Assembly: GCF_900155545.1 (NCBI RefSeq)
Contig: NZ_LT732526.1
Location: forward strand, 580,677 to 614,424
Source: Clostridium sp. Marseille-P2415
GTDB taxonomy: Bacteria > Bacillota > Clostridia > Lachnospirales > Lachnospiraceae
DNA length: 33,748 bases
Direction: 5' to 3'
In this document: positions 17,616-33,469 of the stretch, in pieces
Position numbering within the stretch: the stretch's first letter is position 1
Layout: every line of letters starts with the position of its first letter
Made by a program: the position numbers and the translations under genes
Notes under the pieces: generated by a model
Told to the model about the DNA's origin: nothing
Database searches by the model: none
Seen by the model: the letters and a program-made list of their open reading frames with translations, nothing else

Positions 17616-18511
17616 AAAAGTTTATAAAAATATGTTTGATAGCCGGAGGTATCTGCGTTCTCATAGGCGGAGGTATCGCGTTCACAGCAGCGGCCTTAGG
17701 CGGGGATTTGCTGGATGTTGTACCCCAAAGGGCCGTCCAGTGGAGGAAGGAAATCCCGGGAATAACTCTTGACGGTTTCTGGGAGGATCTCGATGATTAT
17801 TATGGCCGGGAATACACGGATATAGCGGAGGAAGGACAGGAAATTTATTCCTCTTCCGAAGTAAAGAAACTGGATGTGGCCGCACGTGCAGGAAGCGTGG
17901 TCTTTGTAGAGGATCCGGCTGGTGACAGGATCAGGGTGTTCTGTAACAGGGATGAAACTCATTGGAGCCGGTTTGAAGAGAATGAGAAACTGGAACTGCA
18001 GGTATACCCTGGCCGGAAAGGAAGCGGAGACGATTCCGGACTGCTGTTTACCATTCATGTACCTAAGGATTACCATTTTTCCAGCGTGAGTTTGAAGCTG
18101 GCCCATTCCAATGGGTCTTCAGACCAGGAGGAGCCGGCTCCGGTTCTCATGGCCCAGTCTCTGTCTGCTGATGAAATGAACCTGGAAACAAAGGCAGGCA
18201 CCATAAAGATCAGTCAGGGCAATGCAGGAGATCTTAACATTGTAAGTGATGTGGGTGCTGTGGATTTTTCCGGAACCACTTCCGGTAATATTGATGCGGT
18301 ATGCAGGGTCGGTGCCATTCGAATGGAGCTGGCTGGAAAAAAAGAAGATTACAATTATGATATCCAGTGCAGGCTGGGAGCGGTAAAGATAGGCGAAGAA
18401 AGCAGCGCAGCCTTAAAAAGCAAGGACACAATGGATAACGGAGCCGGCAAAAACATGGATTTGGAATGTGAAACAGGTGCGATCCAGGTGGATTTTATGA
18501 ATGAATTATAA
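17612..18511 (+). CDS. DUF4097-family membrane-anchored beta-rich protein
   Basis: 299 residues. One N-terminal membrane segment (about residues 5-28, IKICLIAGGICVLIGGGIAFT) anchors a repetitive beta-solenoid-like domain. Repeated short blocks such as LDVAARAGSVVFVED, NLETKAGTIKISQGNAGDL, SDVGAVDFSGTTSGNI, CRVGAIRMELAGK and CRLGAVKIGEES show the G-A/T-hydrophobic rhythm of DUF4097. Such proteins are found with PspC/LiaF and PadR-DUF1700 genes, pointing to the envelope. The start overlaps the previous stop (ATGA). A 47-nt gap with GAAAGGAG precedes the final pspC-like gene. Orientation relative to the membrane is not certain. Confidence 0.85.
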   Translation: MKKFIKICLIAGGICVLIGGGIAFTAAALGGDLLDVVPQRAVQWRKEIPGITLDGFWEDLDDYYGREYTDIAEEGQEIYSSSEVKKLDVAARAGSVVFVEDPAGDRIRVFCNRDETHWSRFEENEKLELQVYPGRKGSGDDSGLLFTIHVPKDYHFSSVSLKLAHSNGSSDQEEPAPVLMAQSLSADEMNLETKAGTIKISQGNAGDLNIVSDVGAVDFSGTTSGNIDAVCRVGAIRMELAGKKEDYNYDIQCRLGAVKIGEESSAALKSKDTMDNGAGKNMDLECETGAIQVDFMNEL

Positions 18512-18558
18512 TACAATGACTACAGTTACATGTCAGAGGGAAGAAAGGAGACATACAA

Positions 18559-18747
18559 ATGGAAGGCAATCAGAAAAGATTATACCGTTCCGATACGGAC
18601 AAAATGCTTTGCGGGGTATGTGGAGGGATCGCAGAATATTTTGATGTGGATACTACCATCATCCGCCTGTTATGGGCGGTGTTAGGCTGTTCAGGCGCAG
18701 GCATCGTGGCATATTTTATAGCGGCTGTCATTATTCCAAGGAGATAA
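18559..18747 (+). CDS. PspC-domain membrane protein (second copy)
   Basis: 62 residues, ATG 18559 with AAAGGAG 10 nt upstream. It repeats the PspC pattern of the first gene: QKRLYRSDTDKMLCGVCGGI, AEYFDVDTTIIRLLW, and a C-terminal AYFIAAVIIPRR. It is shorter because the segment between the two hydrophobic parts is compact. Two PspC paralogues therefore bracket the PadR-HAAS-DUF4097 genes. It is the last gene of the operon, with a hairpin terminator 25 nt after its stop. Confidence 0.88.
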   Translation: MEGNQKRLYRSDTDKMLCGVCGGIAEYFDVDTTIIRLLWAVLGCSGAGIVAYFIAAVIIPRR

Positions 18748-18772
18748 GCGGATCTCAATGCTTGGATTCTGA

Positions 18773-18825
18773 AAAAGAGGCAGGCCATAGCGGATGAACC
18801 GTTCCGCTGTGTCCTGCCTTTTCCC
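18773..18825 (+). terminator. Terminator after the PspC-PadR operon
   Basis: Outer GGCAGG (18779-18784) with CCTGCC (18813-18818), extended by A/T pairs, and inner AGCGGA (18789-18794) with TCCGCT (18803-18808), then TTTTCCC. Confidence 0.7.
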
Positions 18826-18849
18826 TGTAAAATACCGGAAAAAAATTAC

Positions 18850-18878
18850 GTTTAATTCTTCTGGCAGCGGGCATACTC
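18850..18878 (+). promoter_or_regulatory. Possible forespore (sigma-G-like) promoter of the spore protein gene
   Basis: GTTTA (18850-18854), 17-nt spacer, CATACTC (18872-18878), compared with the known sigma-G consensus of a G-x-A-T-A-like -35 and CATxxTA -10. The match is partial; the gene product makes forespore control likely. Confidence 0.3.
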
Positions 18879-18909
18879 TCTTTAGATTTGTGAAAGGAGA
18901 TGCAAATAT

Positions 18910-19131
18910 ATGTCAAAAGGAAAGAAAAATGAACCATTTGATCCTCATAATATGAAGCCGGAGGAAATACTTAAATTCGAAATCGCTACGGAGCTTGGTC
19001 TTGGCGACAAAGTGGTAAATGGAGGCTGGCGCAGCCTGACCGCAAAGGAAAGCGGACGGATTGGGGGCCTGATTACGAAAAGAAAAAGAGAACTGAAAAA
19101 AGACGCTCTTGTGAAAGAAGAGGAAGCATAG
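18910..19131 (+). CDS. Small acid-soluble spore protein, alpha/beta type
   Basis: 73 residues from ATG 18910 with GAAAGGAG upstream. The alpha/beta SASP pattern is clear: LKFEIATELGLGDKV carries the protease (GPR) cleavage region at FE-IA, and RSLTAKESGRIGGLITKRKREL the second DNA-contact helix with the conserved G-x-x-G-G. These proteins coat and protect spore DNA and are later degraded as amino acid supply. The N-terminal Lys/Pro-rich part and Glu-rich tail are longer than in the major Bacillus SASPs, suggesting a minor clostridial form. This shows that the organism sporulates. Single gene between two unrelated operons. Confidence 0.9.
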   Translation: MSKGKKNEPFDPHNMKPEEILKFEIATELGLGDKVVNGGWRSLTAKESGRIGGLITKRKRELKKDALVKEEEA

Positions 19132-19143
19132 GGAAACATTTCC

Positions 19144-19172
19144 TTGCGCCATAAGCAAAAATCTTTTATAAT
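19144..19172 (+). promoter_or_regulatory. Candidate promoter of the cobalamin operon
   Basis: TTGCGC (19144-19149), 17-nt spacer, TATAAT (19167-19172), 21 nt before the cbiD start. The resulting leader is too short for an AdoCbl riboswitch. Confidence 0.6.
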
Positions 19173-19193
19173 GTACATCGAAGAGGAAAAAAT

Positions 19194-20450
19194 ATGGAAA
19201 AACACGAATTAAGAAGCGGATTCACCACGGGAACCTGCGCCGCTGTTGCTGCCAAGGCAGCAGCAGCCATGCTGCTTACCGGAAGTGAACTGGAACATAT
19301 GGAGCTTATGACGCCAAAAGGAAGGTTTGCCGATTTATCCCTTTTCCATGTCGCCTTAAACCGGGAAAAAGCGGTCTGTGCGGTTAAAAAAGATGCCGGA
19401 GATGATCCGGATGTAACGGATCAGGCCCTGGTATTTGCCTCCGTGGAATATTTTAATGGAAAAGAGGATGAGCCGGTAAAAAGATGTTATTGTTGGAACG
19501 GGGAAGAAGCGGACGGCGTAAGTCCGCTTTTTTTGGCTGCCGGAGAAGGGATTGGACTGGTGACAAGGCCAGGACTTTCCTGTCCCGTGGGTATGCCGGC
19601 CATTAATCCGGTCCCCCGCAGCATGATATTCCATGGCGTGGAGGAAGCGAGAAGGAAAGCCGGTTTTGAGGGTTCCTTAAAAATATGCATCTGGATGCCG
19701 GAGGGAAGAAACCTGGCGGAGAAGACCTTTAATCCAAAGCTTGGGATCAAAGGGGGCCTTTCGGTTCTAGGAACCACCGGGATTGTGAACCCCATGAGCG
19801 AAGCGGCTCTTACGGCTACCATACGTCTGGAACTGCATATGAAAGCGGTGGCAGGCATCAGACGGGTCATTCTGACTCCGGGAAATTATGGGGAGGCATT
19901 CATAAAGGAAGCTCTTGGCCTATTCATGGAAGAAGGAGTCACCTGCAGCAATTTCATCGGGGATGCCTTAGAGATGGCGGGAGAAGAGGGCTTCGGCCAG
20001 ATCCTGCTTACAGGGCATATCGGGAAGCTTATCAAGGTCGCGGGAGGTGTATCCAATACCCATTCCAAATATGGGGACCGCCGTATGGAAATTTTGTGGG
20101 ACTGTACCGCTGCCTCATTGGAAGGGAAAAGCTTTAAAAGAAGCAGCATTGGGATGGAATTGAAAAATAAGATCCTTCTGGCAAATACCATGGAGGAAGC
20201 CGCTGGGATTTTAAAGGATTACGGAATACTGGAGCCTGTAATGGAAGAGGCAGTAAACAGAATACAGAAATTTGCCTCCCTTTGGGCAGGCGGGATAAAG
20301 GTGGAAGTGGTGACATTTTCCACCGTTTACGGGATACTGGGAATGAGCCGGGAAGCACAGGCACTCATTGGGCTGTTCGCCGGGATGACCGGAGATACGG
20401 ATAAACAGGAGGATAAAGTATGGCTGGAACCATGTATGGGATCGGAGTAG
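19194..20450 (+). CDS. cbiD: Cobalt-precorrin-5B (C1)-methyltransferase
   Basis: 418 residues. Methylates C1 of cobalt-precorrin-5B with S-adenosylmethionine in the anaerobic cobalamin pathway. The family N-terminus RSGFTTGTCAAVAAKAA is present, as are GIGLVTRPGL-x-PVG and INPVPRSMI, and later GTTGIVNPMSEAA and the GHIGKLIKVAGGVSNTHS segment. It runs somewhat longer than the typical 360-380 residues, mainly from a C-terminal extension. ATG 19194 has GAGG 8 nt upstream. First gene of the operon; its last 31 nt overlap the next gene, whose ribosome-binding site is inside cbiD. Confidence 0.95.
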   Translation: MEKHELRSGFTTGTCAAVAAKAAAAMLLTGSELEHMELMTPKGRFADLSLFHVALNREKAVCAVKKDAGDDPDVTDQALVFASVEYFNGKEDEPVKRCYCWNGEEADGVSPLFLAAGEGIGLVTRPGLSCPVGMPAINPVPRSMIFHGVEEARRKAGFEGSLKICIWMPEGRNLAEKTFNPKLGIKGGLSVLGTTGIVNPMSEAALTATIRLELHMKAVAGIRRVILTPGNYGEAFIKEALGLFMEEGVTCSNFIGDALEMAGEEGFGQILLTGHIGKLIKVAGGVSNTHSKYGDRRMEILWDCTAASLEGKSFKRSSIGMELKNKILLANTMEEAAGILKDYGILEPVMEEAVNRIQKFASLWAGGIKVEVVTFSTVYGILGMSREAQALIGLFAGMTGDTDKQEDKVWLEPCMGSE

Positions 20451-21097
20451 GGCCGGGAGATCCGGAGCTGATGACCTTAAAAGCGGCAAAGAGGATCCGG
20501 GAATTAAACATCATCGCTATTCCGCATAAAGAGAAGGAATTATGTACTGCATATCAGATCGCCAGGCAGGCGGTACCGGAAATAGAGGAAAAGGAATGCA
20601 TTTATCTGCCCATGCCCATGACAAAGGATAAAAAGGTGCTGGAGGAAAGCCATGACCTGGCGGCCAGGGCCGTGATGGAACATCTGGACAGGGGAGAAGA
20701 CGTGGGATTTATAACGCTGGGGGATGTAAGCATTTATTCAACCTGCAGTTATCTGCTGGACAGGCTCTGGAAGGAGGGGTATGCCACCCGCCTGGAATGC
20801 GGAATTCCTTCCTTTTGCGCCGCTGCGGCCAGATTGGGGGTTCCGCTGGTATCGGGGGCAGAGGAGCTTCACATCATCCCTGCTTCCTATCAGGTAAAGG
20901 ATGCTTTAAAGCTTTCCGGTGTAAAGGTGCTCATGAAAGCGGGCAGACAGATGGAAGCGGTAAAGGAAGAAATCAGAAAATGCAGGTCCAGCGCCGTCAT
21001 GGTGGAGAACTGCGGGATGCAGTCGGAACGGATCTATCATTCCCTGGATGAAATCCCGGAAGACGCAGGCTATTATTCATTGTTGATTGTGAGGTAA
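20420..21097 (+). CDS. cbiL: Cobalt-factor II C20-methyltransferase
   Basis: 225 residues, tetrapyrrole methylase fold. It adds the C20 methyl group to cobalt-factor II (cobalt-sirohydrochlorin). The N-terminal SAM-binding loop GIGVGPGDPELMTLKAAKRI, the middle GDVSIYSTCSYL and GIPSFCAAAARLGVPL are those of CbiL/CobI. The start ATG 20420 follows GGAGG by 7 nt and lies inside cbiD, giving a 31-nt overlap; a second ATG at 20432 is possible but less well placed. The stop is 2 nt before cbiF. Length is normal. Confidence 0.94.
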   Translation: MAGTMYGIGVGPGDPELMTLKAAKRIRELNIIAIPHKEKELCTAYQIARQAVPEIEEKECIYLPMPMTKDKKVLEESHDLAARAVMEHLDRGEDVGFITLGDVSIYSTCSYLLDRLWKEGYATRLECGIPSFCAAAARLGVPLVSGAEELHIIPASYQVKDALKLSGVKVLMKAGRQMEAVKEEIRKCRSSAVMVENCGMQSERIYHSLDEIPEDAGYYSLLIVR

Positions 21098-21099
21098 AA

Positions 21100-21864
21100 A
21101 TGGTACATATAGTGGGAGCAGGTCCGGGAGCACCGGACTTAATCACGGTAAGAGGAAAGGAATTGCTGCTGCGGGCAGATGTGATCATTTATGCAGGTTC
21201 TCTGGTAAATCCGGTTCTGTTAGAAGGGAGAAAGGAAGGCTGCCAGGTTTATGACAGCGCGGAAATGACCCTGGAGGAAGTGATCGCTGTGATGGAGAAA
21301 GCGGAAAAAGAAGGAAAGACGACGGTACGGCTCCATACCGGGGACCCCTGTATCTATGGCGCAATAAGGGAGCAGATGGACGAGCTGGACGCAAGGGGGA
21401 TTTCTTATGATGTCTGCCCGGGGGTCAGCTCCTTTTGCGGTGCGGCATCGGCACTTAAGATGGAATATACCCTTCCCCGGGTATCCCAGAGTGTGGTCAT
21501 TACCCGTATGGCAGGCAGGACGCCGGTGCCGGAGCGGGAATCCATCGCTTCCTTTGCAGCCCATGGCACCACCATGGTGATTTTCTTAAGCACAGGGATG
21601 TTAGATGCTTTGGCAGAAGAACTGATAAAGGGCGGTTATGCTCCGGATACGCCAGCTGCCATCGTTTACAAGGCCACCTGGGATGAAGAGAAGACCGTGA
21701 TCTGTACGGTGGAAAGCTTAAGCGAAGGTGCAAAACGGGAGAGTATAAGGAAAACGGCTCTGATTCTTGTGGGCAATGCAGTGGCTCAGAACGCCTATGA
21801 GCGTTCCAGGCTTTATGATCCGGCCTTTACCACGGAATTCCGGAAGGGGACGGACGGGAAATGA
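21100..21864 (+). CDS. cbiF: Cobalt-precorrin-4 C11-methyltransferase
   Basis: 254 residues, SAM-dependent tetrapyrrole methylase. It begins MVHIVGAGPGAPDLITVRG, characteristic of CbiF/CobM, and has YAGSLVNP, LHTGDPCIYGAIREQMD, CPGVSSFCGAASAL and the distal VYKATW and R-K-T-A-L-ILVG segments. Methylates C11 of cobalt-precorrin-4. GAGGT precedes the start. Its TGA overlaps the cbiG ATG (ATGATG). Confidence 0.95.
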   Translation: MVHIVGAGPGAPDLITVRGKELLLRADVIIYAGSLVNPVLLEGRKEGCQVYDSAEMTLEEVIAVMEKAEKEGKTTVRLHTGDPCIYGAIREQMDELDARGISYDVCPGVSSFCGAASALKMEYTLPRVSQSVVITRMAGRTPVPERESIASFAAHGTTMVIFLSTGMLDALAEELIKGGYAPDTPAAIVYKATWDEEKTVICTVESLSEGAKRESIRKTALILVGNAVAQNAYERSRLYDPAFTTEFRKGTDGK

Positions 21865-22928
21865 TGAAGCTTTCTATCGTATGCTTTACGGAGGCCGGAG
21901 CCGGGCTCTGCGTAAGGCTCATGAAAGGACTTTCCATGGCCGGAGACCAGTGTGAAGGCTTTGGGCCCAAAAAGCTTCTGGAATCCGGCTCAGACGGGGA
22001 ATCCCTGGTTCCTCTCAAGACATCGTTAACGGAATGGACAAAAGAGCAGTTTTTGAAGAAAGACGGGATTGTGTTCATAGGGGCTGCGGGCATAGCGGTC
22101 CGGGCCGTTGCTCCTTTTTTAAAGAGCAAAGCAGTGGATCCGGCCGTGGTGGTCCTGGATGATATGGGCCGTTTCTCCATTTCCCTTTTATCCGGCCATC
22201 TGGGCGGAGCCAATGAGCTGGCGGAGCGGGCGGCAGGAATTGCGGGCGGACAGGCGGTCATCACGACTGCCACAGACAACCATGGTGGATTTGCAGTTGA
22301 CTTGTTTGCCAAAAAACAGGGACTTGCCATCACCGGGCTTAGCAGGGTAAAAGAGGTTTCCGCTGCGGTCCTTAGGGGAGAAACCATTGGATTTTACAGT
22401 GATTTTCCGGTAGAAGGGAAACTTCCCCCGGGGCTTGTCTCCGGGGAGGCATGCCGGCTGAACCTTTGGATAACCGTAAAGAACAAGCCGGAAGAGGCTG
22501 TTTTAAAGGATTCCTTTAAGCTGGTTCCAAAGCTTCTCATCCTGGGAATCGGATGCAGGAAAGGGATTCCGGCAGAAGAGATAGAAAAGGCTGTAAATCG
22601 GATTTTTGGGGAGTGGAATTTATCCCTGGAAGGCCTGATTGCATGTGCCAGCATTGATTTAAAAAAAGAAGAAGCAGGGATCTGTGAATATGCGGCCGGA
22701 AAAGGGATCCGGTTTTACACCTATCCGGCCCGGACGCTTGCCGAAACGGAAGGGGAGTTTTCCGCTTCTTCTTTTGTAAAGCAGGTAACAGGAGTTGACA
22801 ATGTTTGTGAGCGGTCAGCCCTTGCCTGTGCTGAGAAACTGGGAGGCGGAAGGCTTCTGGTAAAAAAACAGGCATCGGGCGGCGTAACGGTAGCCGTGGC
22901 TGTCCTGGATTGGAAGGTAAAATTATGA
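21861..22928 (+). CDS. cbiG: Cobalt-precorrin 5A hydrolase
   Basis: 355 residues, normal for CbiG. It opens the delta-lactone of cobalt-precorrin-5A with release of acetaldehyde. The N-terminal domain has FIGAAGIAVRAVAPFLKSKAVDPAVVVLDD and SLLSGHLGGANELAE, the central part TATDNHGGFAVDLFA, and the C-terminal CbiG_C domain GIGCRKGIPAEEIEKAV with ASIDLKKEE and GGRLLVKKQ. Overlaps cbiF by 4 nt and cbiH by 4 nt. An adjacent second in-frame ATG (21864) is an equally possible start. Confidence 0.95.
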   Translation: MMKLSIVCFTEAGAGLCVRLMKGLSMAGDQCEGFGPKKLLESGSDGESLVPLKTSLTEWTKEQFLKKDGIVFIGAAGIAVRAVAPFLKSKAVDPAVVVLDDMGRFSISLLSGHLGGANELAERAAGIAGGQAVITTATDNHGGFAVDLFAKKQGLAITGLSRVKEVSAAVLRGETIGFYSDFPVEGKLPPGLVSGEACRLNLWITVKNKPEEAVLKDSFKLVPKLLILGIGCRKGIPAEEIEKAVNRIFGEWNLSLEGLIACASIDLKKEEAGICEYAAGKGIRFYTYPARTLAETEGEFSASSFVKQVTGVDNVCERSALACAEKLGGGRLLVKKQASGGVTVAVAVLDWKVKL

Positions 22929-23665
22929 ACAGAACAGGAAAACTTTACGTGGTGGGAATCGGCCCGGGATCCTACGAGGATATGACCATAAGAGCGGTAA
23001 AGGCATTGGAAGAGAGCCAGGTCATTGTAGGATATACGGTTTATGCAGATCTTGTGCGGAAACATTTCCCGGATAAGGAGTTTATGACAACTCCCATGCG
23101 CAGGGAACAGGAACGCTGCCGGCTGGCCATTGATGAGGCAAAAAAGGGAAAAACCGTTTCCATGGTATGCAGCGGGGACTCCGGCGTTTACGGCATGAGC
23201 GGTCTGATTCTTCAAATGGCGCGATGGGACCCGGAACTGGAAATCGTAATCATCCCCGGAGTGACGGCGGCGTTAAGCGGCGGAGCGCTTCTGGGCGCTC
23301 CCCTTGGACATGATTTTGCGGTAATCAGCTTAAGTGATCTGCTCACTCCCATGGATTTGATTGAAAAGAGGCTCAGGACTTCAGCCCAGGCAGACATGAT
23401 CATTTGTCTTTACAATCCTTCCAGCAAAAAGAGGGCGGATTATTTAAAACGTGCCTGTGAAACCGTCATGGAATACAAAAGTCCGGAAACCGTGTGCGGC
23501 CTTGTAAGGAATATCGGCAGGGAAGAGGAAGAAATGGAGGTCATGACCCTGGAAAAATTAAGGGATGCCCAGGCAGATATGTTTACGACCATCTTTATCG
23601 GGAATTCCATGACAAAAGAAATAAATGGAAGAATGGTAACACCAAGAGGATATAAACATGTGTAG
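22925..23665 (+). CDS. cbiH: Cobalt-precorrin-3 C17-methyltransferase
   Basis: 246 residues from ATG 22925, which overlaps the cbiG stop (ATGA) and has GGAAGG upstream; an in-frame TTG at 22910 is less likely. Methylates C17 with ring contraction. KLYVVGIGPGSYEDMTIRAV is the SAM loop; GYTVYADLVR, VCSGDSGVYGMSG, IPGVTAALSGGALLGAPLGHDFAVISLSDLL and LYNPSSKKR are diagnostic for CbiH/CobJ. The end overlaps the next gene by 8 nt. Confidence 0.95.
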   Translation: MNRTGKLYVVGIGPGSYEDMTIRAVKALEESQVIVGYTVYADLVRKHFPDKEFMTTPMRREQERCRLAIDEAKKGKTVSMVCSGDSGVYGMSGLILQMARWDPELEIVIIPGVTAALSGGALLGAPLGHDFAVISLSDLLTPMDLIEKRLRTSAQADMIICLYNPSSKKRADYLKRACETVMEYKSPETVCGLVRNIGREEEEMEVMTLEKLRDAQADMFTTIFIGNSMTKEINGRMVTPRGYKHV

Positions 23666-25067
23666 GGTTCTTATTTTCGGGGGTACCACGGAGGGCAGGA
23701 TTCTGGCTGAATACTGCCATGAAAATGGGATAAACGCATGGGTCAGTGTGGCTACCGGATATGGGAAAATGGTTCTGCCGGAGAGCCGGTATCTGCATAT
23801 ACAGGAATCCCCCATGAATTCCGGCGAGATGGAACAGTTTATGGGACGTATGGGCATTGATCTTGTATTTGACGCTACCCATCCTTATGCAGCAGCGGTG
23901 AGTCAAAACATCCTCACGGCCTGTGAACGGACCGGAGCGAAGCGCATGAGGGTGGTCCGGGAGGAATGTGCTGCAAAAGAGGAGGAGAGCATTGTATGGG
24001 CCGGTTCGGTGGAGGAAGCGGTCCTTTCCTTAAGCAAAAGGCAGGGGAATGTTCTTGTAACCACGGGAAGCAAGGAACTTTCGCTCTTTATGGCCCTGGA
24101 TTCCTGGGAGGACCGGGTTTTTGCAAGAGTGCTGCCGACCGTATCTGTGATTTCTGCCTGTGAGCAGATGGGGATAAAGGGAAAACATTTGATCGGCATG
24201 CAGGGACCTTTTTCTGTGGAAATGAACAAGGCCATGATAAAGCAGTATGATATACGGTATCTTGTGACAAAAGAAGCCGGCAATGCCGGAGGTTTCCCGG
24301 AAAAAATAAGAGCTGCAGCGGAATGCGGCATAACAGCGGTTGTTGTTGGACGCCCGGTAAAAGAAGAAGGAATCACGGTACAGGAAGCAAAAAATATATT
24401 GGGTCCAAAGCCTGGCATCCCGCCGGAAAGGAAGAGCGTTTCGCTGATCGGAATCGGAATGGGCGGGCCGGACCAGATGACCGGAAAGGCGTTAAAAGCA
24501 TTGCAGGCCTGCGATGTGGTGTTTGGTGCAGAGAGGATGCTTCTTAGCATTTCCCATGCAATACCAAATGCCGTTCAGAAACCGTTTTATTTAAGCAGGG
24601 ATATCCTGCCCTGGCTGGAGGAGCATAAGGAGTGCCGCCGGATCGGAATCCTTTATTCCGGTGATACGGGTTTTTACAGCGGTGCCGGAAAGATGGCGGA
24701 AGCGTTAAATAAAGAGCCATACTGCCGAAAGTATTGTACCGAAGTTTTTCCCGGGGTATCTTCCGTTTCTTATTTGTGTTCCAGATTGAAAACGGGCTGG
24801 GAAGACGTGCGGCTTGTGAGCCTTCACGGAAGGGATTGGGATATTCTTGAAGAATTAAGGGGCAGTCCCAGGGTTTTTGCGTTGTTAGACGGAACCAATA
24901 CGGTAAAAAGCCTTTGCCGTCTTCTTAAGGAACAGGGATTTGCTGAAATCAGGCTTTCTGTGGGGGAACGGCTTTCCTATCCGGATGAACGGATCACCGT
25001 TGGAACGCCGGAAGCTTTGGAGCAGCAGGAATTTGACCGCCTGTCAGCGGTATTGATTGAGAGGTAA
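23658..25067 (+). CDS. cbiJE: Fused cobalt-precorrin-6A reductase and cobalt-precorrin-7 C5-methyltransferase
   Basis: 469 residues holding two enzymes. Residues about 1-250 are CbiJ/CobK: CRVLIFGGTTEGRILAEYC, DATHPYAAAVSQNI, VTTGSKELSLF, GMQGPFSVEMNKA and VTKEAGNAGGFPEKI. After a short linker, about 260-469 is CbiE: SVSLIGIGMGGPDQMTGKA, VVFGAERML, LYSGDTGFYSGAGKM, FPGVSSVSYLCSRL and LSVGERLSYPDERI. So the reduction and C5 methylation steps sit in one chain, while the C15 methylating/decarboxylating CbiT is a separate gene 3 nt downstream. The start ATG overlaps the end of cbiH. No stop or frameshift separates the halves. Confidence 0.93.
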   Translation: MCRVLIFGGTTEGRILAEYCHENGINAWVSVATGYGKMVLPESRYLHIQESPMNSGEMEQFMGRMGIDLVFDATHPYAAAVSQNILTACERTGAKRMRVVREECAAKEEESIVWAGSVEEAVLSLSKRQGNVLVTTGSKELSLFMALDSWEDRVFARVLPTVSVISACEQMGIKGKHLIGMQGPFSVEMNKAMIKQYDIRYLVTKEAGNAGGFPEKIRAAAECGITAVVVGRPVKEEGITVQEAKNILGPKPGIPPERKSVSLIGIGMGGPDQMTGKALKALQACDVVFGAERMLLSISHAIPNAVQKPFYLSRDILPWLEEHKECRRIGILYSGDTGFYSGAGKMAEALNKEPYCRKYCTEVFPGVSSVSYLCSRLKTGWEDVRLVSLHGRDWDILEELRGSPRVFALLDGTNTVKSLCRLLKEQGFAEIRLSVGERLSYPDERITVGTPEALEQQEFDRLSAVLIER

Positions 25068-25070
25068 TGC

Positions 25071-25643
25071 ATGAGAGATGAACAGTTTATCCGCGGAGAT
25101 GTACCCATGACCAAAAGTGAGGTCCGGGCTGTTTCCATATCAAAACTGGAACTAAAGCCGGATTCCGTTCTCTATGATGTGGGGGCCGGGACCGGATCCG
25201 TATCCATCGAAGCTTCCCGTTTCCTTACCGGGGGACGGGTCTATGCCATTGAAAGAAAGGCGGAGGCAATAAGCCTTATAAGAGCCAATAAGGATAAGTT
25301 CCGTGCCGATTGCCTGGAAATCGTGGAAGGAGCGGCACCGGAGGCCATGACCGGGCTCGAAGCGCCTACCCATGTATTTATCGGGGGGACTTCCGGCTCC
25401 ATGGAAGCAGTGCTTGCTCTTGTGTTGCAAAAGAATCCCAAGGCACGGATCGTTATGAATGTCATAGCTCTGGAATCCCTTGGAGCTGTTTTAACCTGGC
25501 TTAAAAAGCATTCCGTTACGGCAGAAATCGTGCAGGTGCAGGTTTCAAAAGGCAGGCTGGCAGGGGACTGTCATTTGATGCTGGGACAGAATCCGGTTTA
25601 TGTTGTTTCATTCGGAGGGGAAGGAGGAACCGTATTTGAATAA
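25071..25643 (+). CDS. cbiT: Cobalt-precorrin-6B C15-methyltransferase (decarboxylating)
   Basis: 190 residues, class I Rossmann methyltransferase. It methylates C15 and decarboxylates the C12 acetate side chain. MRDEQFIRGDVPMTKSEVRA is the conserved CbiT N-terminus, LYDVGAGTGSVSIEAS the SAM-binding loop, and FIGGTSGSMEAVL a family motif. GAGAGG lies 7 nt upstream of the ATG. The final codons overlap the TTG start of cbiA by 8 nt. Works on the substrate delivered by CbiE of the upstream fusion. Confidence 0.94.
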   Translation: MRDEQFIRGDVPMTKSEVRAVSISKLELKPDSVLYDVGAGTGSVSIEASRFLTGGRVYAIERKAEAISLIRANKDKFRADCLEIVEGAAPEAMTGLEAPTHVFIGGTSGSMEAVLALVLQKNPKARIVMNVIALESLGAVLTWLKKHSVTAEIVQVQVSKGRLAGDCHLMLGQNPVYVVSFGGEGGTVFE

Positions 25644-27042
25644 TGCATATCCCAGGCTGATGCTTGCAGCCCCGAAAAGCGGCAGCGGGAAGACTATGAT
25701 GACCTGCGGGCTTTTAAATGCGTTTCTGGGCAGGAAGATATCCTGCCGGTCTTTTAAATGCGGCCCGGATTATATAGACCCCATGTTTCATAAATATGTT
25801 CTTGGCATAGACGGCGGAAATCTGGATACTTTTTTTCTGGAAAAAGAGAGGGTGAAGGAACAGTTTGTAAATCAGGCAGACGGGGCCGGGATTTCCGTCA
25901 TAGAAGGCGTCATGGGGTATTATGACGGGGTCGGGGGAGACAGTACCCGGGCCAGCTCCTATGAGGTGGCATGTACGGTGGAGGCGCCGGCCGTACTGGT
26001 CCTGGACTGCAAAGGAGCCGGTTTATCACTGGCTGCCTTGATGAAGGGGTTCCTGGAATACAGAGAGGACAGCCATATTTGCGGCGTAATCTTAAACAGG
26101 ACCTCAGAAGTCATGGCAGAGCGGTTAAGGCCTGCCATGGAAGCGCTGGGAATCCGTGTGTACGGATATCTGCCGGAATGTGAGGAAGGCCGCCTGGACA
26201 GCCGGCATCTTGGCCTGGTGCTTCCGGAGGAATTAAAAGGATTCAAGGAACAGCTAGACAAGCTGGCCGCTAAGATGGAAAACACAATTGACATCAAAGG
26301 ACTCATGGAACTGGCTGGGAATGCCGGACCGCTGACCTGTTATTGCGGCGGCAGCGGTCCGGAGGCATTTAAAGCAGCCGCCCGGAGCCGGGTGCCCATA
26401 GGGATCGCAAGAGACGAAGCATTCTGTTTTTATTATCAGGAGAATTTAAAGCTTATGAAAGATATGGGTGCAAAGCTGATCCCGTTCAGCCCGGTTCACG
26501 ATAAAAGGCTGCCGGAAGGAATCTGCGGACTTTTGTTTGGCGGGGGATATCCGGAGCTATACGGACAGGAGCTATCGGAAAATGAATCCATGCTCAGGGA
26601 TATCCGAAACGCATCAGACCGTTCTATGCCCATACTGGCCGAATGCGGAGGTTTCCTGTACCTTCATGATGAACTGGAGACAAAAGAACATAAAATTTAT
26701 CCTATGGCAGGGATCATCCACGGAAGGGCTTATCCCACAGAACGCCTTTTAAGGTTTGGCTACATCGAGGCTTTTTCCAGGGAAGATGCCGCGTTTTTGA
26801 AAAAAGGAGAGTCCATCCGCGGGCATGAATTCCATTACTGGGACAGTACCAATAACGGAACCCGGATGGAAGCACGGAAGCCCGGAGGACGGAAAAGCTG
26901 GGACTGTGTTCATGCAGAAGGGAATCTTCTGGCAGGATTTCCTCATTTTTATTACCCGTCAAATCCTGTTTTGCCAGGACGGTTCGTAGAAGCCTGTGAA
27001 CGGTTTAAGAAAGCGGAATGTAAGGAGGCTATGGAAAAATGA
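25636..27042 (+). CDS. cbiA: Cobyrinic acid a,c-diamide synthase
   Basis: 468 residues. ATP- and glutamine-dependent amidation of the a and c side chains. The best start is TTG 25636, 8 nt after AAGGAGG (25621-25627); the frame extends further up without a site. The N-terminal P-loop region PRLMLAAPKSGSGKTMM binds ATP; KCGPDYIDPMFH, EGVMGYYDGVG and LDC follow. The C-terminal class-I-like glutaminase domain has the nucleophile Cys337 in LAECGGFLYL and a distal His in RGHEFHYWD. Overlaps cbiT by 8 nt and cobT by 4 nt. Confidence 0.94.
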   Translation: MNNAYPRLMLAAPKSGSGKTMMTCGLLNAFLGRKISCRSFKCGPDYIDPMFHKYVLGIDGGNLDTFFLEKERVKEQFVNQADGAGISVIEGVMGYYDGVGGDSTRASSYEVACTVEAPAVLVLDCKGAGLSLAALMKGFLEYREDSHICGVILNRTSEVMAERLRPAMEALGIRVYGYLPECEEGRLDSRHLGLVLPEELKGFKEQLDKLAAKMENTIDIKGLMELAGNAGPLTCYCGGSGPEAFKAAARSRVPIGIARDEAFCFYYQENLKLMKDMGAKLIPFSPVHDKRLPEGICGLLFGGGYPELYGQELSENESMLRDIRNASDRSMPILAECGGFLYLHDELETKEHKIYPMAGIIHGRAYPTERLLRFGYIEAFSREDAAFLKKGESIRGHEFHYWDSTNNGTRMEARKPGGRKSWDCVHAEGNLLAGFPHFYYPSNPVLPGRFVEACERFKKAECKEAMEK

Positions 27043-28118
27043 ACGATGAGCTTCATACATATCTGTCCCGGATCCGGCCGCTTCATGAGAAAGCGATGGA
27101 AATGGCCCGCCTGCGGTGGAGTCATGTAGCAAAACCCCTTAACAGCCTGGGTATCCTGGAAGATGATATTGTAAAGATCGCGGGCATAAGCGGAACCTCA
27201 AACGTGGATATCGGAAGGCGGGCTCTCCTCATACTGTGCGGGGATAACGGGATCGTGGAGGAAGGAGTCACCCAGACCGGCCAGGAGGTAACAGCCGTTG
27301 TGACAGAGAATATGACGGAAGGAAACAGCAGTGTCTGCATCATGGCAGACCGGGCCGGAGTGGATGTTTTTCCGGTGGATATTGGAGTTTCCAGAGATTT
27401 AAGGTCCGGTTCCCGTCATCCTCTGATTCGCAGAAAAATCGCTTACGGCACAAAAAATTTCCGGAAAGAGCCTGCCATGACGCGGGCTGAAGCGGTTAAG
27501 TCCATGGAAACCGGCATCCGTCTGGTTGAGGAACTGGCACAAAAAGGCTATCATCTCATTGCCACCGGAGAAATGGGGATCGGGAATACGACTACCAGCA
27601 GTGCCGTTTCTTCCATGCTTCTTAAGAGAGATCCGGAGGAATTGACCGGAAGGGGAGCAGGATTAAATGAGGAAGGTTTAAGGAAAAAGCTTGAAGTCAT
27701 AAAAGAGGCCATAGAAACATACGGACCCGGGTGCCGGGATGTGACAGACATTCTGGCCAGTGTGGGCGGATTTGATATAGCCGGACTGGCCGGTGTGTTT
27801 TTGGGCGGTGCCATCTGCCGGATTCCTGTGCTGATCGATGGATTTATTTCCGCTGCCGCAGCTCTTGCCGCAGAGCGGATTTATCCGGGATGCCGGGATT
27901 ATATGCTGGCTTCCCATGTATCTGCAGAGCCTGCCGGGCGGCGGCTTCTTGATGAACTGGGGCTGGCACCGCTCATACAGGCCCATATGTGCCTGGGAGA
28001 GGGAACCGGAGCGGTGGCAGCGGTCCCGCTTTTGGATATGGCAGCCGATGTTTATACGAAAATGAGTTCCTTTGAAGACATTCATATTGAAGAATATAAG
28101 CCAATGGAGGGCGTGTAA
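27039..28118 (+). CDS. cobT: Nicotinate-nucleotide:dimethylbenzimidazole phosphoribosyltransferase
   Basis: 359 residues, normal length. It makes the alpha-ribazole phosphate for the lower ligand. RPLHEKAMEMARLRW and KPLNSLGILED open the protein; LCGDNGIVEEGVTQTGQEVT, GEMGIGNTTTSSA and GGFDIAGLAGVFLGGA are family motifs; the catalytic Glu lies at residue 321 in LGEGTGAVAA. Its ATG overlaps the cbiA stop (ATGA) and its stop overlaps the cobU start (TAATG). No cobS (cobalamin synthase) or cobC follows, unlike many cobUST clusters. Confidence 0.95.
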   Translation: MNDELHTYLSRIRPLHEKAMEMARLRWSHVAKPLNSLGILEDDIVKIAGISGTSNVDIGRRALLILCGDNGIVEEGVTQTGQEVTAVVTENMTEGNSSVCIMADRAGVDVFPVDIGVSRDLRSGSRHPLIRRKIAYGTKNFRKEPAMTRAEAVKSMETGIRLVEELAQKGYHLIATGEMGIGNTTTSSAVSSMLLKRDPEELTGRGAGLNEEGLRKKLEVIKEAIETYGPGCRDVTDILASVGGFDIAGLAGVFLGGAICRIPVLIDGFISAAAALAAERIYPGCRDYMLASHVSAEPAGRRLLDELGLAPLIQAHMCLGEGTGAVAAVPLLDMAADVYTKMSSFEDIHIEEYKPMEGV

Positions 28119-28672
28119 TGGTTACGCTGATTATCGGAGGAAGCGGAAGCGGAAAGTCGGAGTATGCCGAAAGCCTGATCCAGGAGCTGGGGGAGGGAAG
28201 GCGGATATACATCGCCACCATGAAGCCCTGGGATGAAGAATGCAGGAAACGGATCGAACGCCACCGGCAGATGAGGGCCAGGAAACATTTTGAAACCGTG
28301 GAGCGTTATCGGAATTTAAAAGACGTTGATCTGGGAAAATCCGGGAAGCCCATGGCAGTTCTTCTGGAATGCATGTCAAATCTGGTATCCAATGAACTTT
28401 TCGGCCTTGGGGAAACAGGAGAAGCCCCTCCCCTGGGAGAAGACCGGGCAGTGGAAGCGGTATTGGAGGGAATCCGGCATGTGAAGGAGCAGTCAGAGGA
28501 ATTTATCATTGTGACCAATGAGGTTTTCTCGGATGGAGACGGCTACAGCGAAAAAACCAATGCCTACCGAAAGGTTCTGGGAGAAATCAATCAAAAAACA
28601 GCCGGACTGGCGGATACGGTCGTGGAGGTAGTTGCCGGGATCCCGGTTATAGTAAAAAAAGGAATGAATTGA
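28118..28672 (+). CDS. cobU: Adenosylcobinamide kinase / adenosylcobinamide-phosphate guanylyltransferase
   Basis: 184 residues. Activates adenosylcobinamide with GTP before lower-ligand attachment. Walker A GGSGSGKS is at residues 7-14; IATMKPWDEE and the guanylylated His49 in RIERHRQMR are present, as is the VTNEVFSDGDGYSEKTNAYR segment replacing the usual VSNEVG. Translationally coupled to cobT (TAATG). Last gene of the cobalamin operon. The -35 hexamer of the next operon overlaps its stop codon. Confidence 0.94.
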   Translation: MVTLIIGGSGSGKSEYAESLIQELGEGRRIYIATMKPWDEECRKRIERHRQMRARKHFETVERYRNLKDVDLGKSGKPMAVLLECMSNLVSNELFGLGETGEAPPLGEDRAVEAVLEGIRHVKEQSEEFIIVTNEVFSDGDGYSEKTNAYRKVLGEINQKTAGLADTVVEVVAGIPVIVKKGMN

Positions 28673-30630: not shown

Positions 30631-31827
30631 ATGGGACTGAATGAAACACCATCCTCCGAGCGGGTGCATATCGGCTTTTTCGGCCGCCGCAATGCAGGAA
30701 AATCAAGCGTTGTTAACGCAGTAACAGGACAGGAACTGTCCGTTGTATCCGAAGTAAAAGGCACGACCACAGATCCGGTCTATAAATCCATGGAACTGCT
30801 CCCCATGGGTCCGGTGGTCATCATCGATACTCCCGGGTTTGACGATGAAGGAACCCTGGGAGAAATGCGGGTAAGAAAAACAAAGCAGATTTTAAACCGG
30901 GCGGACTGTGCCGTTCTGGTGGTTGACGGAACCATTGGAAAAACGGAGGCAGATGAAGAACTGATCCGTTTGTTTGAGGAAAAGAAGATTCCTTACGTGG
31001 TTGCCTATAATAAATGTGACTTAACCGGTAAACAGCTCTTTCCGGACGGGCTTTCCGTCAGTGCGGAAGAAGGCCTGTTTATCCATGAATTAAAGGAGCG
31101 GATCGGAGGACTTGTAAATACCGGAGATATGAAAATGAGGATCGTGGGAGATTTACTGGATCCCTATGATCTGGTGGTTTTAGTGATCCCCATTGATAAG
31201 GCAGCGCCGAAGGGCCGTCTTATCCTGCCGCAGCAGCAGGTAATGCGGGATATCCTAGAGGCAGGAGGAATATCGGCCGCAGTGCGCGATACGGAATTAA
31301 AGGGGACCCTGGAAAAACTGGGAAAGAAGCCGGCCCTTGTCATAACGGACAGCCAGGCTTTTGAGCAGGTCAACAAAGATACGCCCGAAGATATTCTCCT
31401 TACTTCCTTTTCGATCCTGATGGCCAGGTATAAGGGCTTTCTGGAGGACGCCGTAAAAGGGGTGGCCGCCCTTGCGGAATTAAAGGATGGGGACAGGATA
31501 CTCATTTCCGAAGGCTGTAGTCATCACAGACAGTGCGATGATATTGGAACCGTAAAGCTTCCACGCTGGCTGCGGGAATTTACGGGGAAGGAGCTTTTGA
31601 TTGAAACCTCATCCGGGCGGGAGTTTCCGGAAGATTTATCAGTCTACCGGCTGATCATCCATTGCGGCGGATGCATGTTAAATGAGAGGGAGATGGAGTA
31701 CCGGAGAAAATGTGCTGCTGACGCAAATGTTCCGTTTACGAATTATGGTACTGCCATCGCTCATATGAAAGGAATTTTAAAGAGGAGCTTAAAGATATTT
31801 CCCCATCTGGAAGAGAAGCTTTTATAA
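30631..31827 (+). CDS. hydF: [FeFe]-hydrogenase H-cluster maturation GTPase
   Basis: 398 residues from ATG 30631 with AGAGGTG upstream; a GTG at 30622 in frame is less well placed. HydF is the scaffold on which the diiron subcluster is built and from which it is handed to apo-hydrogenase. G1 is GRRNAGKS (residues 18-25), then GTTTDP, DTPGFDD and NKCD. The C-terminal iron-sulfur site uses C296-x-H298 in EGCSHHRQCDD and H344-C345-x2-C348 in IIHCGGC. All features for activity are present. hydE, the third maturase, is not in the window, nor is a hydrogenase structural gene. Confidence 0.95.
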   Translation: MGLNETPSSERVHIGFFGRRNAGKSSVVNAVTGQELSVVSEVKGTTTDPVYKSMELLPMGPVVIIDTPGFDDEGTLGEMRVRKTKQILNRADCAVLVVDGTIGKTEADEELIRLFEEKKIPYVVAYNKCDLTGKQLFPDGLSVSAEEGLFIHELKERIGGLVNTGDMKMRIVGDLLDPYDLVVLVIPIDKAAPKGRLILPQQQVMRDILEAGGISAAVRDTELKGTLEKLGKKPALVITDSQAFEQVNKDTPEDILLTSFSILMARYKGFLEDAVKGVAALAELKDGDRILISEGCSHHRQCDDIGTVKLPRWLREFTGKELLIETSSGREFPEDLSVYRLIIHCGGCMLNEREMEYRRKCAADANVPFTNYGTAIAHMKGILKRSLKIFPHLEEKLL

Positions 31828-31889: not shown

Positions 31890-31918
31890 TTGACTAACGG
31901 AAAGGCTTGTGCTACTGT
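31890..31918 (+). promoter_or_regulatory. Candidate promoter of the riboswitch-oadB transcript
   Basis: TTGACT (31890-31895), 17-nt spacer, TACTGT (31913-31918). Predicted start near 31925, only a few bases before the aptamer. Confidence 0.6.
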
Positions 31919-31929
31919 AATGTTAATCA

Positions 31930-32048
31930 GATATAGGGGAGTAGTCAGCATACTGTAATGGAATAGGGTTTCTTTTACAGAAATGCAGTTAAATCAACAT
32001 CGTGGACAGAAATGTTCTGGTTTAATTTGAAAAGACAAGACCTGTATC
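31930..32048 (+). promoter_or_regulatory. yybP-ykoY (Mn2+) riboswitch aptamer
   Basis: The aptamer can be folded by eye. P1: GATATAGG (31930-31937) with CCTGTATC (32041-32048). The conserved 5' loop reads AGGGGAGTAG right after P1 and the conserved 3' strand reads ACAAGACC right before it, both hallmarks of yybP-ykoY. P2: GCAT..CTGTAA (31948-31958) with TTACAG..ATGC (31975-31986). P3: TTAAATC (31989-31995) with GGTTTAA (32019-32025). P4: GGACA-GAAA-TGTTC (32004-32017). The L3 segment TCAACATCGTGG resembles TCAATTCGTG of the Lactococcus aptamer. Family knowledge: Mn2+ bound between L1 and L3 stabilises P1. Here this should prevent the overlapping terminator and switch the downstream gene on. 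The other half of this 334-nt gap is AT-rich without a gene. Confidence 0.85.
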
Positions 32049-32080
32049 CTAATTTTAGGATACAGGTCTTGTCTTTTTAA
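32030..32080 (+). terminator. Riboswitch-controlled intrinsic terminator (expression platform)
   Basis: A perfect 22-bp stem, 32030-32051 with 32056-32077, 4-nt loop ATTT, followed by further T. The 5' arm contains the ACAAGACC element and the 3' strand of P1 (32041-32048), so aptamer and terminator are mutually exclusive. Confidence 0.92.
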
Positions 32081-32161
32081 GGTTAAGATCGGGTGGAACT
32101 GCATAGATTGCCGGCGATTCTGTCTATACTAAAAGTGCACAAGAACGAAGGGAGATTTACA

Positions 32162-33298
32162 ATGGACTTTTTGCTTTCAGGTATTGCTTCTATTACCATT
32201 CCCCAATTGATCATGTACCTCGTAGGTATCTTATTGATCTATCTTGCCATTAAAAAGGGCTATGAACCGTCGCTTCTTCTTCCGATGGGATTTGGCGCGA
32301 TTCTGGTTAATCTGCCCTTATCCGGTGTTATTGATCAGACACTTCCTGGTATCGGGAATACCCATGGCATCATTCAGTGGCTGTTTGAATCAGGAATTGA
32401 AGCCTCCGAGGCGCTGCCGCTGCTCTTATTTATCGGTATCGGAGCCATGATTGATTTTGGCCCTCTTTTATCCAATCCCATTATGATGTTATTCGGTGCT
32501 GCAGCACAGTTTGGTATCTTCTTTACCATTTCCGTTGCCGTTTTGCTGGGCTTCGGCCTTTCCGATGCCGCTTCCATCGGCATCATCGGTGCGGCTGACG
32601 GACCGACCTCCATCCTGGTGTCGCAGATCCTTAAATCAAATTACATCGGCCCCATTGCCGTAGCAGCATATTCCTATATGGCACTGGTTCCGCTGGTACA
32701 GCCGCTGGCGATCAGGATGGTTACCACCAGAAAAGAACGTCTTATCAGAATGCCTTATAATCCGGTGTCCGTATCGAAAAGAATTAAGATTATATTTCCC
32801 ATTGCAGTAACAATCATTGCCGGCTTTGTCGCACCCCAGTCCGTTTCATTGGTTGGCTTTTTAATGTTTGGCAACCTGCTTAGGGAATGCGGCGTTCTGA
32901 ACAGTTTATCGGATGCGGCACAAAACATACTTGCCAACCTGGTTACTCTGCTGCTTGGTATCACCGTTTCCTTCAGTATGAGAGCGGAAGCTTTTGTGAC
33001 CTGGCAGACCCTGCTTATCCTTGGTCTTGGCCTCATTGCATTCGTATTTGACACCATAGGCGGCGTTCTGTTTGCAAAATTCATTAACCTGTTCCGCAAG
33101 AATAAGATCAATCCCATGATCGGAGCGGCCGGTATTTCCGCTTTTCCCATGTCGGCCCGGGTGGTACAGAAGATGGCGATTAAGGAAGACCCTACAAACC
33201 ATCTGCTGATGCATGCCATTGGTGCCAACGTTTCCGGCCAGATTGCTTCCGTGTTAGCAGGCGGCATTATCTTAAACCTCCTGACGACCTTATTATGA
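32162..33298 (+). CDS. Na+-translocating decarboxylase beta subunit (OadB/GcdB/MmdB family)
   Basis: 378 residues from ATG 32162 with GGGAG upstream; a frame extension to 32093 lacks a site. Polytopic membrane protein with about nine to eleven hydrophobic segments. In oxaloacetate, glutaconyl-CoA and methylmalonyl-CoA decarboxylases this subunit couples decarboxylation of carboxybiotin to Na+ export. Key segments are kept: GIIGAADGPTSI with the essential Asp at residue 146, ISAFPMSARVVQK, and MHAIGANVSGQIASVLAGG near the C-terminus. No alpha, gamma or biotin-carrier gene precedes it. It lies behind a Mn2+ riboswitch and is followed 30 nt later by a 46-residue membrane ORF. A TATACT at 32125-32130 could serve a second promoter that bypasses the terminator. 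Confidence 0.92.
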   Translation: MDFLLSGIASITIPQLIMYLVGILLIYLAIKKGYEPSLLLPMGFGAILVNLPLSGVIDQTLPGIGNTHGIIQWLFESGIEASEALPLLLFIGIGAMIDFGPLLSNPIMMLFGAAAQFGIFFTISVAVLLGFGLSDAASIGIIGAADGPTSILVSQILKSNYIGPIAVAAYSYMALVPLVQPLAIRMVTTRKERLIRMPYNPVSVSKRIKIIFPIAVTIIAGFVAPQSVSLVGFLMFGNLLRECGVLNSLSDAAQNILANLVTLLLGITVSFSMRAEAFVTWQTLLILGLGLIAFVFDTIGGVLFAKFINLFRKNKINPMIGAAGISAFPMSARVVQKMAIKEDPTNHLLMHAIGANVSGQIASVLAGGIILNLLTTLL

Positions 33299-33328: not shown

Positions 33329-33469
33329 ATGTTCGATAAATTTCTGATTACACTTGATATTATGTGGAAAGGTATGGTCAGTATTTTTGTGGTTATCATA
33401 ATCATCACCTTACTAATCATGCTGTTCCAATGGTTTGAAAGAAACTTCCTGGATCGGAAGGATAATTGA
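33329..33469 (+). CDS. 46-residue single-span membrane protein, possibly gamma-like subunit partner of OadB
   Basis: ATG 33329 follows GAAAGGAG (8 nt spacing) and reads 46 codons to TGA 33467. The peptide has a short N-terminus (MFDKFLITLDIMWKG), one strongly hydrophobic span (about residues 16-33, rich in Ile/Val/Leu) and a charged tail WFERNFLDRKDN. It begins 30 nt after the OadB-like gene and is surely in its operon, since a terminator follows. The layout recalls the single-span N-terminal part of OadG/gamma subunits of Na+ pump decarboxylases, but it lacks the long Pro/Ala-rich cytoplasmic domain. Function unproven. Confidence 0.7.
   Translation: MFDKFLITLDIMWKGMVSIFVVIIIITLLIMLFQWFERNFLDRKDN

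Follow-up and report, generated by a model that had tools for sequence, protein, structure and literature searches.

The stretch of DNA analyzed here, hereafter the window, comprises 33,748 nucleotides (C9:580677-614424) of the 5.25-Mb genome of Clostridium sp. Marseille-P2415. Near its downstream end, a leader of about 230 nucleotides carries an aptamer of the Mn2+-type (yybP-ykoY) riboswitch class together with an intrinsic terminator, and is followed by genes for an OadB-like membrane protein and a short OadG-like protein, relatives of the beta and gamma subunits of sodium-pump decarboxylases. This riboswitch-oadB unit is placed between hydF, upstream, and a cobalamin cluster, and its features are the following:

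31927-32049, plus strand: Mn2+-type (yybP-ykoY) aptamer, a three-way junction without P4 (RF00080, model R1, unaided fold, covariation)
31931-31937, plus strand: 5' strand of the switch helix P1.1, partner 32041-32047 (fold; pairing in relatives)
31936-31944, plus strand: L1 core GGGGAGUAG (sequence; identical in five genus relatives)
31944-31946, plus strand: 5' strand of P1.2, GUC, partner GAC at 32034-32036 (fold)
31948-31986, plus strand: P2 hairpin (fold)
31987-32027, plus strand: P3 arm with the internal loop L3, UCAACAU, at 31994-32000 (fold; L3 the same in the mntP element of this genome)
32034-32078, plus strand: intrinsic terminator, stem-loop 32034-32073 and T-run 32074-32078 (folds)
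32147-32157, plus strand: ribosome-binding-like GAAGGGAGATT (sequence)
32162-33298, plus strand: OadB-like membrane protein (OAD_beta), 378 amino acids (PF03977; Salmonella OAD beta chain 6iva; Na+-site residues)
33329-33469, plus strand: truncated OadG-like single-pass protein, 46 amino acids, the membrane half of OAD_gamma only (PF04277)
30631-31827, plus strand: hydF, the upstream neighbor (TIGR03918, 546 bits)

For oadB, ATG 32162 is a likelier start codon than GTG 32093, with the Shine-Dalgarno-like GAAGGGAG from 32147, which recurs before 92-95% identical orthologs.

The leader is a genuine riboswitch of the yybP-ykoY (Mn2+) class. The covariance-model search proposed by the initial annotation aligns RF00080 to 31924-32078 with 39.9 bits and an E-value of 1.6e-9 (401 bases searched), albeit below the Rfam cut-off of 45. 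Folded alone and unconstrained, 31927-32049 reaches its energy minimum (-32.4 kcal/mol) in a structure with P1.1, P1.2, P2, and P3, and the landmarks AGGGGAGTAG (L1) and ACAAGACC, which had been said to bracket the aptamer, indeed enclose this three-way junction; the matching L3 (TCAACAT in the DNA) is likewise in place. L1 GGGGAGUAG and L3 UCAACAU, which mark membership of the class, are both present and are shared with the known Mn2+ riboswitches of RF00080 (L. lactis, E. coli mntP), from which the window element differs by its missing P4, its score below the Rfam cut-off, and its OadB-like target. The hairpins P2 and P3 postulated at the outset thus appear in the unaided fold, whereas P4 is absent from it. 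P4 is missing from the mntP-linked aptamers L064, L074, and L077 as well, while the mntP leader of this genome, L065, and a variant that we call form C (see below) seem to hold a hairpin at that position; because mntP-linked aptamers vary in it, we treat P4 as optional. In an alignment of 15 sequences that was fitted to the model and has P1.2 absent from its pairs, 18 of the 23 pairs of P1.1, P2, and P3 changed on both sides. We further built the custom models R1 (five aptamers) and R2 (15 aptamers), both with the window sequence included, so that the scores of the window with them, such as its 128.5 bits with R1, are not independent. The region 31905-32085 (181 nucleotides, terminator included) is more stable than all of 200 shuffled sequences (z -7.47), which is owed mostly to the terminator hairpin.

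The 5' arm of this terminator, starting at 32034, contains the 3' strand of P1.1 (32041-32047), and P1.1 and the terminator are therefore mutually exclusive; from this overlap, the ligand should turn oadB ON. The L. lactis Mn2+ riboswitch has the same overlap between switch helix and terminator, and passages of PMC11087558 describe Mn2+ as stabilizing P1.1 and preventing the terminator there; by analogy, an ON switch is expected in the window. The initial annotation was thus right about the overlap with P1, less so about the 22 base pairs of the terminator stem, which has 25 or 26 pairs depending on the fold; further A-U pairs lengthen the predicted hairpin to 32026-32081. We regard most of the Rfam families that match this hairpin, microRNA families among them, as chance matches to a hairpin. 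A scan for the sigma-70 consensus lists no promoter just upstream of the leader, where one had been proposed, but ahead of the aptamer the window, like each of the five genus leaders with the same element, has TTGACT, 17 nucleotides, and TAnnGT.

The initial annotation had also asked whether this arrangement is conserved, and it is found again in 6 of 25 genus genomes (the window's own included) and at 35 of 80 loci of OadB relatives. Within the genus, every RF00080 match (E<=0.001) lies just upstream of an orthologous OAD_beta gene, and the oadB genes of the five other matched genomes are 93-95% identical to that of the window. In the family sample, RF00080 matched 10 of 397 genomes, with OadB as the next gene in four, MntP in three, a P-type ATPase in one, and other genes in two. 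The four OadB-linked matches are the own one and L062, L063, and L065 (73-87% identical), and the surroundings of oadB are unrelated among the three other genera (synteny differs); the two remaining matches precede what we take from sequence to be an AGCS-type symporter (L075) and an ArsB-type permease (L076). As a survey tool RF00080 proved too insensitive: under the same stricter filters R2 (E<=1e-4) matches 205 of the 397 family genomes, and at E<=0.001 it matches 25 of 25 genus genomes.

For the second survey, OadB relatives were taken from public genome records, in which at least 595 stretches matched and at least 576 were confirmed; the best 80 were kept. As these named loci partly overlap the genomes with G handles (L150, for example, is the locus of G185), the two surveys are not independent. 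R2 gave 45 matches at E<=1, 41 of them within 700 nucleotides upstream of oadB and on the same strand, these upstream windows making up about 3.5% of the searched positions. At E<=0.01, 34 loci found by R2 and L200, found by R3 (a model of form B, see below), give the 35 with an element directly upstream of oadB. Apart from seven loci with weaker R2 matches and the operons L155, L159, and L196 (see below), two loci, L161 and L220, have form-C-like cores unreported by the models, and at the remaining loci no element was seen directly upstream. As a control, canonical oadB genes of the genus were searched, for which 25 sources gave 24 distinct loci (two being the same locus) with proteins 47-51% identical to the OadB of the window; neither R2 nor R3 found a match there at E<=1. 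At the level of sequence, both the riboswitch and its association with this branch of OadB are firmly established. At L047, L049, and L343, aptamers before oadB look decayed, with L1 and L3 changed and the terminator hairpin kept.

The same class of element stands before further genes. In this genome, R1 finds one before mntP that RF00080 misses, and another precedes a P-type cation ATPase gene with weaker support (R2, E 9.9e-4). Mixed operons occur elsewhere: L155 and L159 have the order oadB, riboswitch, mntP, P-type ATPase, and in L196 the element is followed by a Na/Pi-cotransporter gene and then by oadB. The company of MntP, P-type ATPases, Na/Ca exchangers, and CNNM proteins points to divalent-cation export. 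Several further arrangements were observed: In L269, L273, and L274 (G057, G384, and G156), riboswitch, a CNNM/CorC-type gene, and oadB follow each other on one strand. In five genus genomes a CitMHS transporter gene stands before a 62%-identical homolog of oadB, and a P-type ATPase gene precedes CitMHS in the three that were read over 7 kb (L050 and L053 by BLAST, L048 by eye). Canonical-L3 aptamers in L106, L115, and L346 are followed by genes that we presume to encode ABC-transporter ATPases, to our knowledge not an established exporter type for the yybP-ykoY class.

The gene behind the aptamer was correctly called oadB-like: its product scores 502 bits with PF03977 (OAD_beta; cut-off 31.6) and aligns to the Salmonella OAD beta chain 6iva with an E-value of 5.6e-93. 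Its closest relatives form one group, 62-100% identical to it, while canonical OadB proteins reach 47-53%; judged by sequence, the window protein is a separate OadB branch. For comparison with the 129 members of this group that we surveyed (119 distinct sequences), we used 10 canonical proteins from the genus. All 129 members keep the residues equivalent to E40, D203, S382, R389, N412, and S419, and the kept Na+ sites suggest Na+ coupling. The R304 equivalent, by contrast, is arginine in just 20 of 129 members, and the N311 equivalent is asparagine in 93; the window protein itself has serine and asparagine at these positions. According to passages of PMC7274780, R304 is essential in Salmonella OadB. 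The branch thus shares sequence family and Na+-site residues with the canonical subunit and differs from it by E83, I97, F328, and Q360 (129/129, against G, T, V, and V in 10/10 canonical proteins), by the lack of an adjacent alpha gene, and by its tail-less OadG. An OadG-like motif follows 111 of the 129 OadB-like genes, with at most 43 residues beyond the motif, and three loci end too soon; this is the stricter motif count, used because some automatically called OadG reading frames were clearly spurious. The OadG of the window matches PF04277 with 21.1 bits (E 5.2e-4, below the cut-off of 27) over profile positions 4-36 of 76. Its counterpart in the full complex of the same genome covers positions 2-75; the window protein is hence not a full OadG with an alpha-binding tail. 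In Salmonella, removal of the gamma tail is described as severely reducing alpha binding (PMC7274780).

The neighborhoods read show neither an alpha nor a biotin gene next to this oadB, and a full set (carboxyltransferase, OadG, biotin carrier, OadB, and OadA) lies at C9:1.88 Mb of the same genome. The initial annotation had suggested asking whether carriers of the gene lack alpha subunits: OadA is present in 58/58 near-complete carriers and in 60/66 non-carriers (Fisher p 0.03), and over all genomes searched in 71/75 with the gene against 72/80 without it. We set OadA presence aside as an uninformative functional clue.

The aptamers occur in three forms, all of which are found before OadB genes. 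Form A, that of the window, has L3 UCAACAU or nearly so and P2 present; form B has L3 replaced by GUCANNACG; form C keeps L3, lacks P2, and has a hairpin at the P4 position. Covariation supports form B as a structure: 95% of cells are paired and 25 cells changed on both sides, a number reached in 0 of 500 shuffles, while its 18 further pair types are no more than in shuffles. The 11 form-B sequences behind R3 are all linked to OadB; this model matches 123 of 397 family genomes (E<=1e-6), some of these matches being form A. The forms cluster on a FastTree phylogeny (119 OadB-like and 6 canonical proteins) without being monophyletic: four states require 23 changes, against a shuffled mean of 50.6, and because many branches are weakly supported, the number of independent switches is unsure. 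The forms were assigned by hand, with two UCGUCAU loci and the L196 operon placed in B and L148 in A; L171 and the genomes with riboswitch, CNNM gene, and oadB were assigned to no form.

Form B shares target genes with the form of the window. We sorted 151 fetched loci by L3, with one core per locus and a loose pattern, into UCAACA (70), GUCANNACG (71), UCGUCAU (3, kept apart), and no recognizable core (7, left out of the comparison); one reference sequence in this sorting, named AgcS, actually represented the gene that follows the symporter-like one, and none of the counted rows matched it. Among the UCAACA loci with a following gene (67 of 70), this gene encodes MntP in 32, a P-type ATPase in 18, OadB in 8, a Na/Ca exchanger in 2, and another protein in 7. 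The corresponding GUCANNACG loci (70 of 71) comprise 38 P-type ATPases, 8 HflK-like SPFH proteins, 8 OadB, 5 Na/Ca exchangers, 4 CNNM/CorC proteins, one Na/Pi-like and one ArsB-like protein, and 5 others (two of them further SPFH-type, one Pfam-tested), but no MntP. Representatives of the main gene labels were confirmed by Pfam. The difference in MntP, 32/67 versus 0/70, has a Fisher p of 7.6e-13, under the reservation that related genomes are not independent, that the R2 and R3 loci are best-scoring and hand-picked rather than random matches, and that the R2 training set held mntP leaders.

This genome appears to hold all three forms: form A before oadB and mntP; a form-B aptamer with terminator before two SPFH/Band-7 (HflK/HflC-like) genes (C9:558450-558553; L294, 1950), a combination that recurs in the 8 HflK-like loci; and a form-C-like aptamer with terminator before the P-type cation ATPase gene (C8:125532-125629, minus strand; L341), assigned to form C by eye and by the R2 match given above. 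Form B escapes RF00080 (no match at E<=0.01 in ten loci searched), and one form-B locus (L266, 1469-1591, minus strand) matches RF02617, SSRC10, with 43.2 bits, below the cut-off of 56; the window element, with its canonical L3, reaches just 31.4 bits with that model. SSRC10 (Streptococcus small RNA 10) resembles a form-B yybP-ykoY member and may be part of a leader instead of a free small RNA. In S. pyogenes it has a hypothetical gene on one side and a gene for a putative calcium transporter on the other, as passages of PMC3675131 state; the same source describes it as a small RNA, among candidates detected from the complementary strand, and SSRC10 as a transporter leader is therefore unproven. 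The S. pneumoniae mgtA leader is called a Mn/Ca-sensing yybP-ykoY element in a passage of PMC11434433, and PMC9495176, citing Martin 2019, attributes to it a three-way junction that binds Ca2+ tighter than Mn2+ and is better activated by Mn2+. A review (PMC7266159) anticipates yybP variants whose ion specificity has changed, and a paper naming a Ca2+ riboswitch was not found in the open-licence literature searched. We infer that form B is of one kind with SSRC10 and with the mgtA leader, the Streptococcus members being compared by description, and form B may sense another ion.

The following mechanism would account for the window. At high Mn2+, L1 would dock on L3 and P1.1 would form, so that the 5' arm of the terminator is withheld and oadB-oadG is transcribed; at low Mn2+, the 25-26-pair terminator would halt RNA polymerase. 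The product would be a stand-alone beta-gamma pair derived from sodium-pump decarboxylases and would join MntP and the P-type cation ATPase in a metal-efflux set, most likely as a carrier of the elevator type that exports Mn2+, or divalent cations in general, and probably takes up Na+ in return. We consider a Mn2+ ON switch controlling OadB-OadG as a Mn2+/divalent-cation exporter, possibly Na+-coupled, to be the somewhat probable reading: The element, its fold, the overlap of P1.1 and terminator, the conserved pairing, the mntP and ATPase elements, the tail-less gamma, and the Na+-site residues were computed, and Mn2+ binding by this leader, the ON direction of the switch, cation transport, and Na+ coupling are what we infer.

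Of the two roles that the initial annotation had offered, a part in Mn2+ tolerance is accordingly better supported than a Mn2+-dependent decarboxylase: this genome has the same riboswitch class ahead of mntP and of a P-type ATPase gene, oadB occurs beside a riboswitch-mntP-ATPase operon, alpha is not nearby, and OadG is truncated before the docking tail. A decarboxylase produced only when metal is plentiful, that is, a response to sufficiency and not efflux, would fit with biotin carboxyltransferases binding divalent metals, yet the metal-dependent subunit is alpha, which lies outside this transcript, and most other targets seen are cation transporters; we regard it as very improbable. A number of observations nevertheless weigh against the exporter. 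A default Rfam scan of the window lists nothing, although the cut-off of 45 is reached in 0/397 family genomes (stricter filters) and 0/25 genus genomes, mntP-linked members included, and since these fail too, it is insensitive here, being a limit set for searching and not a property of the structure. Seven more of the 80 relatives have weak R2 matches only (E 0.016-0.43), 38 have neither an R2 (E<=1) nor an R3 (E<=0.01) match directly upstream, and no element was found at the 76%- and 62%-identical homologs of other genus genomes: with so many relatives lacking it, the gene must often be expressed without this switch. MntP is present in 25/25 genus genomes, and OadB as a replacement for it was rejected on this ground. 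The R304 position varies in canonical proteins too (R 5, Q 4, K 1 of 10), and a functional decarboxylase subunit would need E40, the Na+-pump residue, and all the Na+ sites, which are kept here.

These last points lead to the main rival, a decarboxylase partner in trans: OadB-OadG would be a working Na+-pump module that uses OadA/carboxytransferase and biotin carrier from elsewhere and, under Mn2+ load, boosts the Na+ gradient for Na+-coupled metal export. Its residues E40, D203, S382, N412, and S419 are unchanged throughout the group, a partner is available in every near-complete carrier genome, and this genome encodes the full decarboxylase set; on the other side stand the near-equal frequency of OadA in genomes without the gene, a gamma without docking tail, the mostly replaced R304, and the lack of an adjoining alpha gene in the loci read. 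On balance we judge this rival doubtful, if well worth keeping in mind. An element of the yybP-ykoY class whose main ligand is a different divalent ion (Ca2+, Co2+, or Cd2+), with a regulon for divalent cations generally, seems improbable: form B, with its altered L3, has target genes in common with the form of the window, the binding preference reported for the mgtA aptamer (PMC9495176) and the variants expected by the review (PMC7266159) would suit it, and Mn2+ riboswitches are said in a passage of PMC11477304 to bind Co2+, Cd2+, and Ni2+ too, but L1 and L3 of the window are canonical, as in the mntP element of the same genome. Finally, the aptamer could be a relic with the terminator alone active. 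Decayed-looking aptamers with kept terminators in G008 and G009 (92%-identical oadB, both still matched by R1) and in G048 speak for decay and, like the points above, against the exporter; the window aptamer, however, retains L1, L3, and the helices, and we hold the relic to be scarcely credible.

Taking the exporter reading and the aptamer forms together, we tentatively propose, as a possibility short of probable, that a decarboxylase pump subunit with a shrunken gamma has turned into a stand-alone divalent-cation exporter under yybP-ykoY riboswitches in Clostridia, and that form B (GUCANNACG for UCAACAU) is a sister class that prefers a different ion, with Ca2+ as the foremost candidate, and has the same targets except mntP. 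A link between OadB and the yybP-ykoY class was not found in the open-licence literature searched. A related case is the Na+-I riboswitch (DUF1646 motif), an ion riboswitch ahead of an oxaloacetate decarboxylase gene; it is of a different RNA class and ion, and passages of PMC9337991 describe its enzyme as a Na+ pump.

Around the unit, the cobalamin biosynthesis cluster (window 19194-28672; L003 4510-10136) flanks hydG-hydF and riboswitch-oadB; in G018 (L079), a cobS-like gene and those following it likewise lie near oadB, with one other gene between. No further RNA family turned up ahead of the cobalamin cluster (18400-19300), and a search for transfer RNAs was likewise negative. A second RF00080 match in this genome (C9:614765) looked like a duplicated cassette but was rejected as one. 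The window ends at a single N (33748; C9:614424 onward; L003 262-4591), and the match lies beyond it in a repeat of about 2.16 kb, which contains the hydF end, riboswitch, oadB, oadG, and the beginning of the cobS-like gene. We think it most likely that two contig ends were joined with their overlap unmerged and that the duplication is not real, and we therefore count one riboswitch copy.

If true, the proposed function would add to the Mn2+/divalent-cation efflux set of Clostridia a protein family for which the open-licence literature searched gave no link to this riboswitch class, and would offer a cheap test of the function of orphan OadB proteins. Form B, moreover, would make the possible ion drift of yybP-type RNAs, raised in PMC7266159, directly testable, as this one genome appears to hold forms A, B, and C before different genes.

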